A stretch of DNA of 64,000 nucleotides. It comes from Prorocentrum cordatum. Taxonomy: Eukaryota > Sar > Dinophyceae > Prorocentrales > Prorocentraceae. The position numbers were made by a program, and so were the translations under genes. This document shows positions 45,024 to 59,016 of this stretch, in pieces. Where the stretch lies: NCBI GenBank assembly GCA_963575745.1, contig CAUYUJ010017903.1, positions 15,001 to 79,000 on the forward strand, in the 5' to 3' direction. Each line of letters begins with the position of its first letter. Position 1 is the first letter of the stretch. Below the pieces are notes generated by a model. That model worked only from the letters and a program-made list of their open reading frames with translations, searched no databases and was not told the origin of the DNA.

Positions 45024-46640
45024 TCACGTGCAGCAGGTACTCCGAGATGTACTTCGCCTCCTCCAAGGACGGCGTCGTTTCTGCTCCCAGACAGTGTGGG
45101 ACCAGTCCGCACCGTGCCAGGCCAGGCAGGGGGGAAGACCGTCAGGATACGTATTCCCAGGTACGCGTGCATCAAGCATGCCGCGTGCAGCCGCATTGCA
45201 CGGGCAGCTCCACAAACGGTGCATGGTGGTCTCGACGGCGCCTGTGCAGCGGACGCAGATCTCGTCGCCGTCGTGGTTCGGGATGCGGGTCTTGCTCAGG
45301 GAGGTCCAGATACCGCCGGTGGTGAGCGCGGGGCCGCCGTAGTGCAGCTGCGCGCCGAACGTGTGCTCTCGTGCCTCACGCACCTCGGAGAGACCTTGGT
45401 GCAGGCCGCCGAAGTCCTTCGGCCGGCGGGCGGCCTCCCGCTCAGCCAGGCAGCGCCGCAAGAAAACACGCAGGTCGTGAAGCCGAGTGTCTACCCGAGC
45501 AGCCTTGCGCAGTCGTGGATAATCGCGCCGGTCTGCTTGGGCAAGCAGCTCGGGGCGAATGCTGAAAGTGAAGGCGTAGTGGGTGCTCTTGAAAGACGTG
45601 GCAGTACGCCACTCAATGCCCAGCGCCCGACAAGCTCGATCCAACAGAGTGAAAGGTCCAAATTTGTGACGTCGTCGCTGTGCCCACAAAGAGCGCCACA
45701 CACTCAAAGGTACAATGTTGGCCAGGACGACCCTGTAGAACATGCGGATAGCCGTGTAGACAGCCGCGCACGTCAAGTGCGTTCGGTGTGCGCCCGGCCC
45801 AAGCAGGTGGGTGAGGTCGCGCGATCTCCGACCCACTCGGCCCGGCGATACATTGCCCATCAAGGATACGGCGGCCCAAGCCGCTGCGTCCGACATCTGA
45901 GTCTTCGTAAAAGCATAGCGGCCGTCACACCAAAGCGCCGCCACGGCGTCGGCGACACCAGCGCCGCGCTGTGTCTGTGGTAAGATTTTGACGACGTCCA
46001 CTCGTTTTCGAAACTGTTGCAGGTGTCTAGCAGCGACGGGCGCTGCCACCGGTGAGCCCAAGATTTGGTCAATCCCAAGATATCTGAAAGTACGCCGTGG
46101 TGGAATAACTCGCAGTTCGGGACTGCCGCACTCGGGGGCGCGCGTACCTGTGGTCGTGACCACCCCGCGGGCGCACTTCGGCACGTTCAAGTCTGGGCCA
46201 ATGGCACGGTCAATCTCGCGTGTGGCTGCCAGAGCGTCGGCGAGTTCTTGCCACGAATGAGCCAGAATGAACCTGTCGTCGATGTAGGAGAAGAGCGTCG
46301 CCGTGGGTACCGCCCGCTCCACTGCCAAGTGCCACATGATTGAAGTTAAGTTGCACAGAATACACGCCATAGGACAGCCCTGCGGTACGCCGACGAGGTT
46401 GTCGCCCTGCAGCACGACGTCCGTTGGCTGGTAATCAACGAACAGAATACGGGATAGGTTCTTCTAGTTCCGAAGGACGTGCCCGCAGATGTCCAAGCCC
46501 AAGTGGTTGGTCAGCTCCAGCAGGATGTGCAAGTCCATCCAGTCGTAACACTTCTCGAGGTCCAGGGACAGCACGTAAGCTGGGTCGGTCTGCGCCACGC
46601 GCGCCTGCGCCAGCTTTGCTTGCAACTCCCATAATACGCC
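45024..46640 (-). pseudogene. Non-LTR (LINE-type) reverse transcriptase with C-terminal zinc finger (relic)
   Basis: On the minus strand, LSLDLEKCYDWMD (motif A, catalytic Asp at about 46,562) is followed by a TAG at 46,464-46,466. In the same frame come LVGVPQGCPMA (motif B region) and SYIDDRFILAHS (motif C, YIDD at 46,275-46,286). Further on are a thumb-like region and, near 45,210-45,260, CVRCTGAVETTMHRLWSC, a CX2C-X8-HX4C finger of the type that follows RT in many LINEs. Without the stop the frame would run from about 46,640 to 45,024. A frame change near 45,060 leads to KYISEYLLHVSASATLACAA before the AT microsatellite. The start of the RT and any endonuclease are missing, as expected for a 5'-truncated insertion. 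Relatively few lesions suggest moderate age. Confidence 0.85.
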
Positions 46641-52304: not shown

Positions 52305-53113
52305 AATTCAACAGCCGGTGGTTGGTGCTGAAATCGGGGTTACTCACCCCTTTCGGATGTTCACCCGCTGGTGGGTACTGTTGGAGTCGCGGTTGATCAC
52401 CTTCTCGTGGCACGCGCGCCGCCGATCGCGACTGGCGCGCTGAGGCCGGCCCCCCCACGGGCGCGCACGCGGCCAGGCGCGGCGCCCAGGGGCGAATGCG
52501 GGGGACAGAGTTCCCGCAAACGGCCCTCTATCTCCTCCTCTTTCTCGTCGTCCTCTCCTTCTCCTCCTCCTCCTCCTCCTCCTCCTCCTCTTCCCCCTCC
52601 CCCCCCTTTTCCTCCTCCTCCTCCTCCTTCTCCTCCTTCTCCCCCTCTTCCCTTCACTGTGCGCACTGCCCGTTTGCCGCTGCGCCAGATCCGATCCGAT
52701 CCGATCCGATCCGACATCCTGCTCCTCGTCGTCGTCCTCGTTTTTTCTTCGCCGTCCTCGTCACCCCCGAGCAGTATTCAGCAGCGGGATCCAAAGAAGT
52801 CGCCCTCGTCACCCTCTCTTGCCGCTTGCCTCCCACCCCTCCTGCCTGGCAAGCCCGGCGGGCCGCCACCAGTACGGGGATGGCAACTCCGCGGACATGT
52901 CGCCGTTCTTGGGCTCGATCATGGATCACTCGCCGGCCATGCTGGAGACGGTCCGCCCCGACGGCGGCGGCGGCGACGGAGAGGGTCGGCCCAACGCGCG
53001 TGTATCTTGAGGTGTCATCTGTATGCGGGAAGCTCCAAAGGTGTTTGGAGGTTCCTCGAGGCTGGGGTACACGGAGGGTTGGGGGCGGGGTAGGAAGGGC
53101 GAATGGGAGGATG
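52305..53113. other. No gene; TCC tract and (GATCC)n
   Basis: TCC tract at 52,555-52,650 and (GATCC)n at 52,686-52,710. Other sequence unrecognised. Confidence 0.6.
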
Positions 53114-53220
53114 TCGGGCATGTCCGTCTAGAGGAGGAATATTCAAAAATAGTCCAGCAATGCTCTGGGGACGGTTGTTAGATTATTTGTGTGATCTACG
53201 TTGGGGCTTTTTGTTGTACT
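53114..53220 (+). mobile_element. Left part of a TCGGGC-type MITE split by the retroelement
   Basis: TCGGGCATGTCCGTCTAGAG, GAGGAATATTCAAAAATAG and CTCTGGGGACGGTTG match the family up to TTGGGGCTTTTTGTTGTACTC, i.e. about the first 107 of 150 bp. The remaining ~43 bp are found at 58,974-59,016. Confidence 0.8.
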
Positions 53221-53239
53221 CAAACACGTGCAGCGATGG

Positions 53240-53660
53240 GAGGTGGGAGTCCGTTGCGACCGAGGCGCCGGACTACGGCGCGCCCGAGTCGCGCGCGAGG
53301 TGCCAGGTGGCGCCGACGGGCCCGATTCACGGCGATGCGCCCTGCTTCGACTTGCCGCCCTCGTGCCCGCTGACAGCACGGAGTCTCCAGGCCGTGGGAG
53401 ATGAACTTCGCGTGCATGTTTGTCCTTCAGCATCAGGCTTTCGTTTGCCAAGTTATGTGACGAAGACTTCGCTGGATATGATGAGTGACGTCGATGAGTT
53501 TGGTGATGCCAGTGAACTGCCCGCGCCACCATCCAGGCGGCGGAAATGCAACCTGCTCCCGCTCCCGTCTGGCGAGGTGGGCGAAGTCCAGGCGTGGCGC
53601 CGTTGAGGCGCAGGCGACATGGGGCTGGCGCAGGCGGTGCCAGAGGTGAACTATTGGCTT
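53240..53660 (+). pseudogene. N-terminal region of the retroelement polyprotein, unknown function
   Basis: The frame from about 53,230 to 53,606 reads with coding-like composition (PLTARSLQAVGDELRVHVC, SDVDEFGDASELPAPPSRRR) and ends at a stop at 53,604-53,606. It then seems to continue in another frame as VPEVNYWLALVISGLNYHCG. No domain is recognised; by position it could be the gag-like or N-terminal part. Confidence 0.45.
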
Positions 53661-53669
53661 GCACTTGTC

Positions 53670-54700
53670 ATCTCTGGGCTCAACTATCACTGTGGCCCCT
53701 GCGGGAAGCCCCCCCCACCTGGCAAGCCAGCGTGGGCCTTCGACGTCAACGCAGCGGCTGGCAACGCAGCTGCTGGCACATGAGGTCCACGTTTTCTTGG
53801 GCCAGCGCGGCGGCGACCTCCCCGAGCCGGACTGGGACGCGGAGGTGAAGGCGTCGGTTGTGAGCTACGCGGGGCAGTGGGTCTACCCCTACCCCTCTGA
53901 GCCGCTGGACCTCGAGAGGCTGCTGGCGGCGCCCCCCCCCCCCCCGCGCTGGGGCGTGATCGGCTGCGTCACCGGTGGGTGTGCTCAGCGCGTGCGAAGG
54001 CCGGGTGCGGCGCGCGCTCCTGGACCGGGCCCCGCGAGCGTGCTCAAGGCCGAGGAAGAGGTTGAGACGTTGCCCGCCACTCCTCGCGCGTGGGCGTCGG
54101 CCGCAGAGCGGGAGCGGATCGCCCCCGCGCTGGTCGAGAGGCAGATCCTCGAGCCCATGGAGCTTGAGGATGTGGCCGCGTTCAAAGGCAAGAAACTACT
54201 CGGGGGGCTCTTCGGGGCCCGCAAGGGCGGCTTCGAGCGCGGGGAGGGCCCGCAACGACTGGTCCTGAATATGATCCCCTCGAATGCTGCCCAGCGCGCG
54301 ATTCAGGGCGACATGCCACCCCTCCCTTCTTCAGAGAAATGGCGCAGCATAGCGCTGAGGTCAGGCGAAATCTTGTCTATGGGGTCGGAGGACCTCAAGT
54401 GCTGTTTCTACGTGTGCAGATTGCCAGAGACCAGGAGGCCACACTTCGCTCCGCCCCTTCCTGTGCGTCGGACGGCCAGCGGGCTCTCAGGAGAAGGAGT
54501 GGTTCATTTGACCTCGGCGGTGGTGCCGATGGTGGATCTCGGCGACTGGGGTGCTCTAACATGCACATCGTTATGTTCTTCGGCATTGGCGTGCTGGGCT
54601 GCCGCGGCTCCCGCCCGATCAAGAGGTGCGACGTGACTTTCCCGTGCCTGGGCGAGGAGGTGAGCCTCGGCCACGTGGGCCCTCGTTCTCCTCTCGGTGC
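53670..54700 (+). pseudogene. Retroelement reverse transcriptase, fingers and palm up to motif B
   Basis: One frame holds QLLAHEVHVFLGQRGG and YAGQWVYPYPSEPLDLERL (an N-terminal extension), then ALVERQILEPMELEDV, GPQRLVLNMIPSN (fingers; RLxxxxIPSN) and ILSMGSEDLKCCFYVCRLPE (motif A region). The order and spacing are those of the RT in dinoflagellate YR retroelements. After about 54,530 the match moves to a second frame (HAHRYVLRHWRAG, LPPDQEVRRDF). A TAA at 54,557-54,559 in that frame sits where Gln is expected, a single C-to-T change. Would copy element RNA into DNA. Inactive as it stands. Confidence 0.75.
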
Positions 54701-55828
54701 CAGCAGGTGACATCGGCGGCCGCATCGAGCTCGGGCAGCAGCGCCGCGCCAGCAGGACGTCGTTGGCGCGGCCAGGTGGGCCCGCGGACGGCGCCCAAGC
54801 CCGGGGCAGGAGGTGCGGCGCGGCCAGATGGGCCCCCTGCCTCCTCGCCGCGCCAGTCGTCAGCCTCGGCCGCGGCATCGACCTTGGGCAGCAGCGCGAT
54901 GCCAGCAGGACGTCCTCGGCGTGGCCAGGTTGGCTCGCCGAATATGGCTGGCTGGTGTGACGTGTACATCGGGCGGGGCAATAGGCAGCTTGGTTTTGCC
55001 CCATCCTTTCGGGGAAATCCTTTTCGCGTCAATGCGGATGGAGACCGAGAGAACGTGATCCAGAAGCCCGGAGAGTGGGCCCGCAGTCGTCCAGAAATGG
55101 TGGCCAAGATCCCTGAGTTGACGGGGTGCAGGCTGCTGTGCCATTGTGGCGATCATGAGGCATGCCACGCTGGCGCCATTCAAGAGCTCTTGGACGAGGT
55201 GTGCTGCCCCGTGGGGGTCGACGAGGCCCCCCCCTCCGAGACTGACGGTCCGCGCTGGCTGGCGTGGCAGGCTTACATCGACAACCTGGACATGCTGGAG
55301 GTCGGGCCGGTGGTGGAGATGGAGATGCTGAGGCTCGCAGGTCGCCCTGAGGCCATGGAGGCGGACCTGGCGAGGTGCGACGCGCTCGGCGTTCCAGTGG
55401 GCGATGGCAAGTCGGTGGTCAGGCAACCTGAGGCGCCTGCGCTGGGGGACTTCGCCGACGGCGCGCGCGGGGCGATTGCCCCCCCTGGCGAGCTCTGCAG
55501 GAAGTTGGCCTCGCTGACGCGGCGCGCCCTCAGGAGGTCGGTGGTCGCGCAGAACTGGCTGCAGGTTCTCGGCGGACGCTGGGTTCGCCCGATGCTGTAC
55601 CGCCGCGAGACGATGACGGGCCTCGGTGCCTTCTGGAAGTTCATGGCCCGCATGCAAGGCGAGCGCCCTCTCCCATCTTCAGCCCGATGGGGAGCTCTTG
55701 AGCGCGCTGTGCCTGATGCTGATGATGCTCTGTTACTTTCGCGCCCCCATCCGTGGCCTGGCGACGGCGTCGGATGCGAGCCTATGGCGAGGGGCAGTGC
55801 GCAGGTCGCGTGGCTTTCTGCCGCGTAG
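54626..55828 (+). pseudogene. DUF4326 domain followed by RT motif C, thumb and connection
   Basis: An open frame of 400 codons. At its start, the end of the motif-B block (RRDFPVPG) gives way to a low-complexity linker built on a duplicated ~90-bp sequence (54,706-54,785 and 54,850-54,935). Next, at 54,950-55,195, comes CDVYIGRGNRQLGFAP, GNPFRVNADGDRENVIQ, LTGCRLLCHCGDHEACHA: the IGR, GNPF, L.C.C....CH pattern of DUF4326. Then RWLAWQAYIDNLDMLEVG supplies RT motif C with YIDN in the place of YxDD, and GRWVRPMLYRRETMTGLGAF a thumb-like part. DUF4326 thus lies inside the RT between motifs B and C. Its function is unknown; the Cys/His pattern suggests metal or nucleic-acid binding. The frame ends at 55,828, after the match has already moved to another frame (GLATASDAS). 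Confidence 0.75.
54706..54935 (+). repeat. Two ~85-bp direct repeats in the RT/DUF4326 linker
   Basis: TCGGCCGCG or TCGGCGGCCGC, GCATCGA, TGGGCAGCAGCGC, CCAGCAGGACGTC and GCGTGGCCAGGT occur in both, 144 bp apart. The duplication lengthens the linker in front of DUF4326. Confidence 0.75.
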
Positions 55829-56760
55829 CATCGCAGCAGCTCGAGCCTCTCAGTTGGGGCGGACAGGTGGCCTCGACGACGAGGGTATACTTCTCTCTAT
55901 TTGATGGCATAGGAGGCGGCCGCAGGGCGCTGGATATGCTCGGCCTCTCCGCGGGCGGGTTCGCGACGGGCGAGATCGACGAGGGGGCAGCTCGAGTAGG
56001 CCGATGCTCGTGGCCCCCCTGCGCGGACCTCTCGCGCGCGAGGGCTGGGCGCCGCGGTCTTGCGGGCAATCGGTCTCGGCTCTACGAGGTCCAGCGGTTC
56101 GCGCGGCTCCTGGTCGAGGTGGTGCGGGGGCAGTGCCAGGTCCAGGCCCATCGAAAACGCGGCGTCAATCGACGACGAGCACCTCTTCGCTTTGTCGGTC
56201 GAGCTCGGGCCGCAGCCAGCGTTGCTGGACGCGGCGGCGCTCTCTCACTGTCATCGTGGCCGCGTGCGCTGGGTCGATCAGGACATGACGGTCGCCCGGC
56301 AAAGGGCGTCGGTGACACATGGGCGAGGTGGAGTTCGGAACTTCATGGGGGGGCAGGGCCGCAGCCGCGGTGGCTTCGCCCTGGGGCGAAGTGGCGAGCT
56401 GGGCAGTGCAGTTCGGGAAGGTTGCCCACCCTCCTCAGGTGCGTGCCGCGGCGTGCCCCTGGCTCGGCCCCGACGGGCATCGCGTCTTGCGATGCGCCGT
56501 TGCTCGGGAGATGGCGAGCAGACGACCGCAGCTACCCGCCGTGCCAGTGCGAAACTATGAGTTGTCTCGTAGAGCGTGACGGTCGCATGCGAGTGCCTGA
56601 CTCTCTCGAGAGGGAGCTGCTGCCGGTTTTCCCGCCTCGCCACGCGGTGGCCGCGCGGGCCAGGAAGGGCCCGAAGGGGCTTCGGCAGTGCCGATGCGCG
56701 TTGCTCGGCAACTCCTTCCAGCGCGGCGCGCCTGCATGGCTGCTGGCGCACTTGGCTGTG
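55753..56760 (+). pseudogene. Cytosine-C5 DNA methyltransferase domain of the retroelement
   Basis: Motif I: VYFSLFDGIGGGRRALDMLG at 55,885 (AdoMet-binding F-D-G-x-G). Motif IV: SWPPCADLSRARAGRRGLAG at 56,008, with the Pro-Cys pair holding the catalytic cysteine. Motif VI: IENAASIDDEH at 56,150, in a different frame. Motif VIII region: SHCHRGRVRWVD near 56,245. Motif X: CRCALLGNSF at 56,690, back in the first frame. Two compensating frame changes lie between. The segment between motifs I and IV is shorter than usual, so bases may also have been lost. Would transfer methyl groups to cytosine in DNA. Capture of DNMTs by retrotransposons is reported in dinoflagellates. The domain sits between the two parts of the RNase H. 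The first two of the ten motifs and the target-recognition part are weak. Confidence 0.75.
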
Positions 56761-57099
56761 TTCGCGGGCTACTTGCAGGAGGTGCCGACGATTGAGGCCC
56801 TGAGGTTCATGGGAGGGGCCTGCGTCATGGCGGAGGCGGACGTGCTGATGGAGACTGGAGGCCAAAGTGAGTGCGAGCCAAAGGCACAGCTTGGCGACCC
56901 GTCTTCTATAGACGAGAGTGGAGGCATCTTCGTCAGGCAGCGCGGCCTGTGGATGCAAGACGCTGTGCTGGACCCGTCCGTGATCGTGGTGGAGGAGGTG
57001 GCGCGCAGGGCTGAAGCGCGCGGCAGTGATGTGCGTCTCGACGCACTTGAGCGCATGTCCCCCCTGACGTGGCCCAGGCGCCCAGTGTCGGCGGCCCGC

Positions 57100-57460
57100 T
57101 GGACTTGGCGCGCAGTGGCGTCATGGCGGTGGAGTCGGCTCCCTCACATCGCTGACCTTGAGGTGCGCAGCTGTCTTGGAGCATTGCAATGGCGTCGCCG
57201 GCAAAGACAGCATCTCCGCACCCGGTTCGTTCACCTCATGGATAGTCAAGTTGGTATTGGCGTTGTGACAAAAGGGAGTTCTCCGTCCCACTTGCTGACT
57301 GTTGTTGCGAAGAGAATATGCGTGCTTGTGCTGGCAAGCCTGTGTAGGCCCATCTATGGGCACTCAGAGACTGACAGAAATCCCGCGGGCGATCCGCCCC
57401 GCAGGCTTCCCGACGGCAAGGATGATGGCGCGTCGTCGCCCTCGCAGATTCGCGGCCGTG
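57100..57460 (+). pseudogene. RNase H C-terminal part of the retroelement
   Basis: HIADLEVRSCLGALQWRRR (Glu in helix A), FVHLMDSQVGIGVVTKGSS (catalytic Asp in DSQ) and CRPIYGHSETDRNPAGDPP (last Asp region, usually NPAD) follow in order. This is the connection/RNase H end found just upstream of the recombinase in dinoflagellate YR elements. The first strand of the same fold, GLATASDAS, is 1.3 kb upstream at 55,755, before the methyltransferase. The extra Gly in NPAGDP is unusual. Confidence 0.7.
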
Positions 57461-58397
57461 GCCAGCCAGCAAGATCGCAGAAGCGCCCAATCTCGGGCCG
57501 GGCTGCTTTCACGCACTCTCATTCAGCCCGCCACTCTCAAACGATATCGAGCTGCCGTGGCCAGTTTCGCACAGTGGCTCGCAAGCCGCGGAGGGCAGGC
57601 CAGCGCCAACATTGACTAGATTGATTGTCAAGTCGCAGAATGGATCGAGTTCTGTGGGCCGACGGCAGGGGGGCAAACGAGGCCGTGGACGCCCTGTCTG
57701 GTCTCCCATTCCTGCTGCGTCGGCGCCGAATCTTGCCGGCCTCGTCGAAACTCTTTGGAGCATGGATGCGGATCGAGCTTCCTCATCGCGCGCCGCCTCT
57801 GGCGCTCAACCTTGTGATGGCAATGCTCTGCTGCTTGCACTCGGCTTCAGCGGATTTCTGCGCAAAACAAAGCTCGTGGCGTTGTGCCGCTGGCAGGTGC
57901 AGGTGTCTTTAGAGCGCTCGACTGTCGTGATTGTGTTGCCCATCTCCAAGAGTGGGCTGAGGCATCGCGTTGACGAGTCCGCGGTCATCAATGACGCTGG
58001 CGTCGCCCGCTTTGTCGATCACACCTCGCCCAGCACCTGCATCCCAGATGTGTGTGTTTTTTTTGAGCGGTGTTGTGAACTTCATAGTTGTGTTCGGCTG
58101 TTTGTTGGGCGGGCCCGAGGTCCGCCACATCGGTTTTCGCCCATATTTTTTCCGCGAGGAGGGGCTACGCATTCTTATCGCGTCTCTCAGAATATGCCAG
58201 CAACGCTTCAGACTGGCCGTTGGAGAGACACGCAGACGGCCAGAATATACATTCCCGAAGGTGTGCGAGTGTTGCTGCAACTTGTTTTTGATGTGAACCC
58301 GCAGCAGCGGTTTGCAGTGCTGGCCCAGACCTTGTGGGCAGACATTAATTTAGCAGCAGGGCCACCGAATATCCCTTGTATTAACAAGTTCACATGA
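57460..58397 (+). pseudogene. Tyrosine recombinase of the retroelement
   Basis: The N-terminal core-binding part (TLKRYRAAVASFAQWLASRG, to a stop at 57,617-57,619) is in one frame. The catalytic part continues in another frame with LLLALGFSGFLRKTKLVALC (first catalytic Arg), VIVLPISKSGLRHRVD (beta-hairpin Lys), PRGGATHSYR (second Arg region), LQTGRWRDTQTARIYI (Trp in place of the third basic residue; nucleophile Tyr at about 58,248). It ends at a stop at 58,395-58,397. A second small frame change near 58,140 separates GFRPYFF from PRGGAT. Would insert the circular DNA copy without target duplication. All key residues can still be found, but not in one frame. Confidence 0.8.
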
Positions 58398-58973
58398 TTA
58401 CACTTCGTGTGGCCCTGCAGTGTTCTGGGGTAGAGACCCCTTCCGCAATGTTCGTTGAAGCAAATAAGGGGCGGGGGGGGGGCAGAAAAGGGCGCATGGA
58501 AAGAGCATGGACCCCGCCCTTGGGGCGGGGAGCGTTTTTGCTGCCCCAGGGCGCGGACCCTGAGGCTTTGTAGGCGCGGGATGAGGCCCCGAAGCGGCAG
58601 AGCCGTCCTCTCCCTGGGCGTGGCCATGCTTCCTCGGGGGTCGAGGCGTGGCATGGCCCTCGTGGCCAGAGGGGGTTTGGCTGGGCGTTGCCCTGGTGTG
58701 TTCGACCTCCGGCGAGGCGTAGCTGCAGCGCGCCCCCTAGGTGCTCCGTGCCCCCGCGCTCTCGGCGTGGCGCTGCTGTGCTTGCTGTTGGGCCCTCCGT
58801 GGCCCTTGGGGGTGACGGCCTCCGGCGAGGCGCAACTGCAGCTCGGCCGAGCGGCCTGACCTCTGTGTGGCGGCGCCCGCCTCTGGAGTCCCGTTGCGAC
58901 TCTTCACAAGACCCTAGCGTGGGAAAGAACATGACGAGCGAGCAGGTGTTAGGGGTCACGTGAAGCTATGTAT
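58398..58973 (+). other. 3' non-coding part of the retroelement
   Basis: Contains ACCCCGCCCTTGGGGCGGGG (hairpin, about 58,510-58,530), a direct repeat CCTCCGGCGAGGCG with CTGCAGC (58,708 and 58,818), and the GGAGTCCCGTTGCGAC and CACGTGAAGC words also found at the 5' end. Confidence 0.5.
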
Positions 58974-59016
58974 TACATCTGTCCTTCAAAATCCGCCTGT
59001 AGGGGTACATGCCCGA
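58974..59016 (+). mobile_element. Right part of the TCGGGC-type MITE split by the retroelement
   Basis: TCTGTCCTTCAAAATCCGCC, TGTAGGGGTACATGCCCGAC completes the MITE begun at 53,114. Together the parts total about 150 bp, the normal length. Confidence 0.8.

Follow-up and report, generated by a model that had tools for sequence, protein, structure and literature searches.

A 64,000-nucleotide stretch of Prorocentrum cordatum DNA (contig CAUYUJ010017903.1, positions 15,001 to 79,000; hereafter the window) holds, at window positions 53334-58349 on the plus strand, one dead copy from a dinoflagellate family of DIRS-like retroelements, here of the Prorocentrum type, with a putative tyrosine recombinase. 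The Pol polyprotein of this family carries the domain DUF4326 within its reverse transcriptase (RT), as assigned from motifs and predicted topology, and a Dnmt3-type cytosine-C5 DNA methyltransferase (DNMT) within its RNase H. The combination of RT, Dnmt3 and recombinase is already known; what had no earlier report in the open-licence papers searched is the presence of DUF4326 inside the RT. The reading favoured here, to which we give a probability of roughly 0.55, joins this dead copy, whose RT palm houses DUF4326 just ahead of the motif C hairpin and whose RNase H houses the DNMT, to a mechanism proposed for intact relatives. In these, RT and RNase H would make double-stranded complementary DNA (cDNA), the tethered Dnmt3 would methylate it at CG, and DUF4326, lying beside the RT active site, would act enzymatically on nascent cDNA or on linked nucleotide or ADP-ribose (ADPr) groups. 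The modified cDNA would resemble host DNA and escape sensing, and the recombinase would insert it.

The element and its decay

Three protein relatives are colinear with the window copy by tblastn: P0009, a 1601-residue P. cordatum protein model, over 53659-58349 (best E=0.0), P0015 over 53523-57387 (best E=5e-118) and P0016 over 53743-57402 (best E=3e-109). When the three plus-strand frames were read from 53,100 to 59,000, motifs of RT, DUF4326, RNase H, cytosine methyltransferase and recombinase were located in that order. An earlier note, made from the letters of the window alone, had placed RT, DUF4326, DNMT, RNase H and recombinase blocks one after another on one strand within 53221-58973, and this is borne out by the located motifs and the colinear tblastn matches; the interval does enclose the element, with detected homology confined to 53334-58349. 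Classification as DIRS-like is supported by RT and RNase H motifs standing in order in one Pol, judged by motifs and predicted topology only. The parts of the element, all on the plus strand, are as follows.

53334..53690, +: 5' part, region before the RT, frame 0 (tblastn with P0019, 48% identity over 119 columns)
53650..54531, +: N-terminal part of the RT with the fingers, and the palm as far as motif A, frame 1 (tblastn with P0009 at 53659-54531, and other relatives)
54533..54649, +: RT motif B region to RRDFPVP, frame 2, with one stop (tblastn with P0009 at 54533-54649, 56% identity)
54641..54941, +: linker containing a tandem duplication of 153 bases, its two copies being 75% alike (repeat search)
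54950..55225, +: DUF4326 domain, placed in the RT after motif B and ahead of motif C, frame 2 (PF14216, E=1e-12; alignment)
55256..55687, +: RT motif C, thumb and connection, frame 2 (tblastn with P0016 at 55256-55702 and P0009 at 54914-55678)
55692..55850, +: first part of RNase H with the catalytic Asp, frame 0 (tblastn with P0006 at 55692-55850, and others)
55885..56800, +: C5 methyltransferase of the Dnmt3 type, lying inside RNase H (with motifs I, IV, VI and X)
56851..57402, +: region after the DNMT and second part of RNase H, frame 1 (tblastn with P0001, P0015, P0016 and P0006)
57524..58349, +: putative tyrosine recombinase in three frames (tblastn with P0009, P0010 and P0011)

The window copy is a fossil. 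Its tblastn matches follow the frame path 0-1-2-0-1-2-1-2-1-0, nine changes in all, of which that between 57402 and 57524 may be an ordinary boundary between open reading frames (ORFs), and three stops lie within the stretches matched by P0009. By eye, the window copy is shorter than P0017 by ~36 residues in the interval from DNMT motif I to motif IV, and the recombinase reads FFPRGGAT where P0009 has SLRRGGAT, with loss of the box-II arginine; the complete set of tyrosine-recombinase residues reported in the earlier note is accordingly one residue short. DUF4326 has lost the D of its CHGD motif (CHAG). Among ten window ORFs scanned against Pfam, the sole significant match was to DUF4326 (PF14216; 48.9 bits against a cut-off of 25), the other nine lacking one because the remaining domains are split across several frames. 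None of the 35 proteins analysed detected a second copy elsewhere in the 64 kb (tblastn, 1e-3), and the window yielded neither a spliced-leader relic nor any tRNA or Rfam match.

DUF4326 within the reverse transcriptase

The RT of the window copy is marked by RLVLNMIPSN (54256), EDLKCCFY (54388) and YIDNLD (55274). Between the second and third of these lies the DUF4326 signature (54965-55168), beginning with YIGRG at 54965 and continuing to CHCGDHEACH at 55139. The PF14216 match covers residues 131-208 of an ORF that starts at 54560, and its open frame is common to DUF4326 and motif C; the domain thus sits in frame inside the RT, the motif B region ending near 54649 and motif C standing at 55274. 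Aligned with its relatives, the window domain keeps the Y, G, N, P, three C and H of the conserved columns, where Y-x-G, N-P and C-x-C...C-H are invariant or nearly so.

The same arrangement is found in P0009, P0015, P0021 and P0008, in each of which motif A (DLKCCFY or DLRCCFY) is followed by motif B (PMGW-SxTG-IQHIHR), a motif of the RRDxPLP type, DUF4326, W-x-x-WQVY[IV]DNLD and the thumb. At the DUF4326 site, P0016 and P0022 have a linker of ~40 residues, and P0023 (recorded as Amphidinium carterae) and P0007 have less. YIDN and the FRR motif are 112 residues apart whether DUF4326 is present (P0009, P0010, P0014, P0015) or absent (P0016), and the remaining RT is thus not displaced by the insertion; from Y[IL]D[NG] to FRR it is 110-111 residues in P0007, P0023 and P0024.

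An AlphaFold2 model of P0008, built from 22 sequences, is rough (mean predicted local distance difference test score, pLDDT, 61.7; predicted template modelling score 0.43). In it, DUF4326 is predicted as a compact unit (10-residue pLDDT means of 80-88 over 351-440), with the motif B helix at 302-317 and strands 455-460 and 466-472 bracketing YVDN at 461. This predicted topology has its elements in the sequence that an RT palm harbouring a single extra domain should show, and together with the motifs it is what supports the identification as a putative RT.

Motif C of window-type elements is mostly YxDN (YIDN, YVDN or YLDN), not YxDD, with YLDS in P0019 and YLDG in P0024. Pro/Gly-rich repeats like the 153-base duplication of the window are also seen by eye in the linkers of P0017 and P0019, and linker duplication may mark a subfamily.

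Methyltransferase, RNase H and recombinase

The DNMT of the window copy is nested inside RNase H, between its two parts. Its motifs I (55891), IV (56014), VI (56153, frame 2) and X (56701) lie between the start of RNase H (ATASDAS, 55761) and its end (HIADLEV 57145, HLMDSQV 57232 and DRNPAG 57373). The enzyme is a Dnmt3-type methyltransferase: relatives match PF00145, DNMT3A and DNMT3B are the best matches both by sequence and by fold, and a structure comparison (VIA-align) of the P0008 model returned only methyltransferases among the 50 matches listed. The RNase H of the window group was matched by no profile. In P0023 and P0024, the DNMT insert persists in long open frames despite the loss of motifs IV and VI, and there the DNMT is possibly inactive and kept as a structural part.

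The putative recombinase is spread over frame 2 (57524-57655), frame 1 (57658-57825) and frame 0 (57825-58349), with its motif positions at 57846-58253; the blocks FLRKTKL, PISKSGLR, GRW and ARIYI are present. In P0009, whose protein model includes the recombinase, the pattern R...K...YxxR...W...Y can be followed by eye. In P0015 and P0016 the Pol protein stops short of the recombinase, which is compatible with its being encoded in a separate ORF.

Recurrence of the architecture

The DNMT frame of the window, used as a query, retrieved seven proteins, five of them from P. cordatum. Four of the set have RT on both sides of the insertion site, and PF14216 is present in three (P0002, P0004 and P0005; not P0007). 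An alignment of P0002, P0005 and P0004 then served as query and gave 33 proteins, including 17 from P. cordatum. P0003 and P0006 start after the site; PF14216 was found in 12 of the other 15, a partial domain in P0018 and P0020, and none in P0013. The latter count is biased upward because the alignment queries contain DUF4326, and the three of four from the DNMT query is the less biased figure. P0015 has DUF4326 at the same RT site, and PF00145 and PF14216 occur together in one protein seven times (P0002, P0004, P0008, P0009, P0015, P0017 and P0025). The DUF4326-RT ORF of the window, when used as query, gave no homologue at E<=0.001 among 7992 scored candidates that share exact words and similar length, and a comparison of P0015 with viral contigs found no relative.

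These relatives bear on whether the blocks adjoin by chance, or whether DUF4326 is a separate gene that landed in the window copy alone. A tandem repeat just before DUF4326 and the many frame changes of the window copy would suit such an event. Recurrence among relatives refutes it, with DUF4326 within the RT in most of the P. cordatum proteins and in P0015, and leaves it a negligible probability. DUF4326 is neither a chance nor a merely adjacent feature. The view that the blocks form a single retroelement is upheld by the seven-fold pairing of DNMT and DUF4326 and by the colinear relatives, and the gathering of related copies that had been advised, as a test of whether the blocks occur only separately, found them recurring together.

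DUF4326 in other retroelement groups

A BLASTP comparison (1e-3) of 12 of the 35 proteins (P0007, P0009, P0015, P0023-P0030 and P0033) divides them into three sets without cross-matches outside DUF4326 and DNMT, except for overhangs of up to ~100 residues on DUF4326-centred matches (e.g. P0015-P0033 and P0026-P0030). Set I is the window type, and within it P0024 has an N-terminal DUF4326 at 31-112. In set II, DUF4326 of P0025 (280-353) follows the PF00145 match (1-124) and precedes motif X as seen by eye, which places it inside the methyltransferase, and P0026 has two DUF4326 domains. In set III (P0027, P0028, P0029, P0030 and P0033), DUF4326 precedes a different RT, which matches RVT_1 at E=0.0012 in P0033 and 0.084 in P0029; P0028 is without the RT part. 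Sets II and III were retrieved through DUF4326 and therefore allow no inference on the frequency of the domain there.

Profile-profile comparison gave no significant match among the RT groups I, II and III, nor between group I or III and the long interspersed nuclear element (LINE) RT of the window treated below (probabilities <1% in all cases, from thin profiles), and hence shows neither kinship nor RT identity. The RNase H comparison of groups I and III gave E=0.0064. Residues ~200-440 of P0027, before its DUF4326, were considered as a methyltransferase on the basis of SPPC and EHPED motifs seen by eye; this was confirmed by neither Pfam nor PDB, and is not counted.

Conservation and ancestry of DUF4326

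Identity between P0015 and P0009 amounts to 50% in the fingers, 60% in the palm, 30% in the linker, 46% in DUF4326, 56% in the C-thumb part of the RT, 48% in the DNMT and 50% in the second part of RNase H. DUF4326 of P0015 is 41% identical to that of P0008 and of P0002, 39% to that of P0014 and 35% to that of P0010. Linker identities to P0015 are 30% for P0009, 17% for P0008, 23% for P0002, 22% for P0014 and 40% for P0010, and the same five pairs share 45-48% in the DNMT and 56-61% in the RT C-thumb part. In each of the five pairs, DUF4326 falls below both DNMT and RT in identity; it exceeds the linker in four, the exception being P0010 with a linker of five aligned residues. Of the 14 scorable RT-inserted copies, the window copy included, 11 retain the C-x-C...C-H signature, with a signature residue lost in P0011, P0017 and P0021 and with P0018 and P0020 excluded as unscorable. 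The signature is also kept in all nine other retroelement domains, P0028 being counted through its kinship with P0029.

A DUF4326 tree was built from 20 retroelement and 55 virus-type rows over 86 columns; 126 viral loci gave 105 distinct domains, which were thinned to 51, and the partial or near-duplicate P0004, P0005, P0012, P0018 and P0020 were left out. Its bootstrap is unsettled. The retroelement rows lie on one side of a branch of weak support (28/87), a starred branch (99/92) joins RT-inserted, DNMT-inserted and N-terminal copies, and four placement changes are needed among the retroelement rows. A single clade of the 11 RT-inserted rows is not rejected (approximately unbiased, AU, test, p=0.37), for which reason neither exchange nor multiple capture is claimed. 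In a tree of 14 chosen set I rows, made with the DUF4326 columns left out and subject to long-branch warnings, a starred clade unites the eight P. cordatum rows and P0015 has no settled position; gain or loss of DUF4326 takes two changes on the best tree and one in 29% of bootstrap trees.

A passive role for DUF4326, as a hitch-hiker or a structural spacer that entered a loop long ago and is tolerated there while serving no enzymatic purpose, would fit both its lower conservation relative to RT and DNMT and the single acquisition that suffices for the RT-inserted copies. It would also fit the related elements P0016, P0022, P0007 and P0023, which lack the domain and show that it is not essential. 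Set against this are the retention of C-x-C...C-H in 20 of 23 scorable retroelement copies, an identity above that of the linker in every pair with more than five linker residues aligned, and a placement that differs among the three RT groups, which would not be expected from tolerance alone. We consider a passive role quite unlikely.

DUF4326 in viruses and its proposed role

DUF4326 has been placed in the rhodanese-phosphatase superfamily and proposed to process terminal phosphates of ADPr or its breakdown products, according to the text of PMC9503650. Fusions to Macro, SLOG and NADAR domains and to replication or restriction-modification components are described in the text of PMC7824862, where a link to DNA modification is predicted and phage fusions are predicted to tie NAD+ signalling to replication and DNA modification. 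The domain also appears in a gene-transfer table (in the portion of PMC6450098 consulted). Ten scanned proteins include the phage-type P0032 and P0034, in which DUF4326 is joined to DNA_pol_A (in P0034 also to UDG), P0031, where it is joined to SLOG, and P0035, where it is joined to NADAR. Among 18 viral DUF4326 ORFs of at least 190 residues, DNA_pol_A and YAcAr were each found twice, and 5_3_exonuc_N, 5_3_exonuc, UDG, HNH_3, RNase_T and YpsA once each. The phage-type L071 matches a PHROG DNA polymerase (1.4e-89); as L069 equals it in length and in the place of the domain, they may represent a single case. The combination of polymerase, DNA methyltransferase and DUF4326 in retroelements resembles these phage fusions. 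The names attached to phage copies include ribonucleotide reductase, NrdA-like and nrdA.1, under which 12 of the 40 phage DUF4326 matches listed (of 214 records) stand; the name may reflect function or only position beside nrdA. The sole PDB profile match of DUF4326, to a designed repeat protein (E=3e-5), was taken as chance.

Sequence comparison establishes the architecture, how it recurs, the conserved DUF4326 signature and the Dnmt3 class. For intact relatives, we infer that DUF4326 is an active enzyme, that its substrate is of the kind named above and that its action is coupled to cDNA synthesis. Methylation of CG de novo is published for retrotransposon DNMTs (text of PMC5890265) and would apply to the window family by analogy. 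The description of the element as self-methylating in the earlier note could apply only to intact relatives, the window copy being dead.

A different function is possible, if doubtful: DUF4326 may be a counter-defence enzyme apart from cDNA chemistry, stripping phosphates or other groups from diffusible ADPr signals and blunting host NAD+/ADPr immunity, with the RT as a convenient carrier. The rhodanese-phosphatase assignment and the ADPr phosphate processing proposed in the text of PMC9503650 point this way, as do the SLOG and NADAR fusions (P0031 and P0035), the two YAcAr and one YpsA among the viral ORFs, and weak matches of relatives to PF22751 (DUF488-N3a), which fall below the cut-off. 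Yet these samples are small, DUF4326 is about equally often fused to DNA polymerases or other DNA enzymes, and in retroelements it adjoins RT motif C or sits inside the DNMT.

Several results weigh against the favoured reading, with its proposed action on cDNA and the architecture on which this builds. No activity is known for DUF4326, and a model of the window domain (mean pLDDT 80.7) has no PDB fold match at E<=0.001. The profile checks recommended in the earlier note succeeded for PF14216 in the window and PF00145 in relatives, and failed for the RT of the window group, which neither Pfam RVT_1 nor PDB profiles matched, and for the recombinase, which has no match in Pfam or PDB and, in P0009, a weak one to the PHROG 216 integrase (E=0.0055). 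In the P0008 model, pLDDT is low in the motif B helix (~50-71) and the motif C hairpin (59-66). By eye, the DNMT parts of P0023 and P0024 lack motifs IV and VI. No terminal repeats beyond low complexity, whether split or inverted as in the A-coding-B-A-B layout of DIRS-like elements, were found around the window copy. The P. cordatum proteins are gene models, some of them chimaeric (P0012 with PF16417 and P0020 with PF00852), and some skip RT parts. To these are added the DUF4326-free relatives, the modest conservation of the domain with its three lost signatures, and the bias of the larger count, all given above.

A broader proposal, which we hold only tentatively and regard as improbable on present evidence, is that a DUF4326 enzyme of the virus type has been captured, exchanged or moved to new places by dinoflagellate retroelements belonging to three or more RT groups. 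Its placements are the RT palm, the N-terminus, the interior of a cytosine methyltransferase and tandem pairs, and the elements would use it with the methyltransferase to disguise or protect cDNA from the nucleotide-based (NAD+/ADP-ribose) surveillance of the host. If true, the polymerase of these retrotransposons would itself contain a counter-defence module.

Comparison with known systems

Elements of the DIRS/Ngaro type combine RT, RNase H and tyrosine recombinase, and some carry a captured adenine methyltransferase; the window family differs from the latter by its cytosine-type enzyme and by DUF4326. DIRS/Ngaro elements with adenine methyltransferases are also named in the text of PMC5890265. 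The pairing of a cytosine-type DNMT with a recombinase, put forward as new in the earlier note, had been published in 2018 as SymbioDIRS-Dnmt3, which has RT, cytosine DNMT and tyrosine recombinase in dinoflagellates (PMC5890265, main text). By that text, the two families share a dinoflagellate host, a DIRS-like character, a Dnmt3-type DNMT that accompanies RT and RNase H in Pol, a tyrosine recombinase (putative in the window family), and an RT poorly matched by Pfam, the DIRS RTs of Symbiodinium aligning poorly there. The window family differs in having DUF4326 in the RT, a domain that receives no mention in the main text of PMC5890265. Its DNMT lies between two RNase H parts, an arrangement that SymbioDIRS-Dnmt3 may share, and in P0009 its recombinase lies within the same protein model.

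The window element may simply be an ordinary member of SymbioDIRS-Dnmt3, with DUF4326 already part of that family and unmentioned in 2018, which would be compatible with the other readings. The components in common (RT, a DNMT within Pol, RNase H and recombinase) speak for it as far as the published text describes them. Against it, the main text of PMC5890265, whose domains come from Pfam searches, contains DUF4326 nowhere, and a form without DUF4326 is represented by P0016 and P0007; we judge such membership rather unlikely.

The addition of DUF4326 had been correctly called from the window, with its placement inside the RT and its recurrence in other RT groups missed. No report of DUF4326 in retroelements was found in open-licence PMC papers, including the portions consulted of PMC5890265, PMC6338049, PMC11453091 and PMC10449503 (subscription papers, preprints and supplements lay outside the search). 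Virus-type DUF4326 of phages and large DNA viruses (text of PMC9503650 and PMC7824862) has the same YIGR...W-NP...C-x-C...CHGD signature and is also found in polymerase fusions; 13 retroelement rows differ in carrying extra residues between YIGR and W-NP, compared with four virus-type rows. DNMT3A and DNMT3B differ from the present enzyme, which is inserted in the RNase H domain of a Pol polyprotein.

DUF4326, a domain discussed in viruses, is found to share retroelement polypeptides with RT and cytosine methyltransferase, which supports, from a different element type, the link predicted in the text of PMC7824862 and points to a so far unstudied level of retrotransposon-host conflict. The family is also a natural case in which a whole domain is accepted between RT motifs B and C and a second inside RNase H. 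In P. cordatum, DNMTs are ~11-fold more abundant in the nuclear fraction, a result reported with no tie to these elements in the text of PMC10449503.

Another retroelement fragment in the window

Positions 45024-46463 on the minus strand hold an unrelated RT fragment (P0036), whose RVT_1 match (E=3.9e-5) is below the cut-off. It is LINE-like by its motifs GVPQGCP and YIDD and by a late CVRC...

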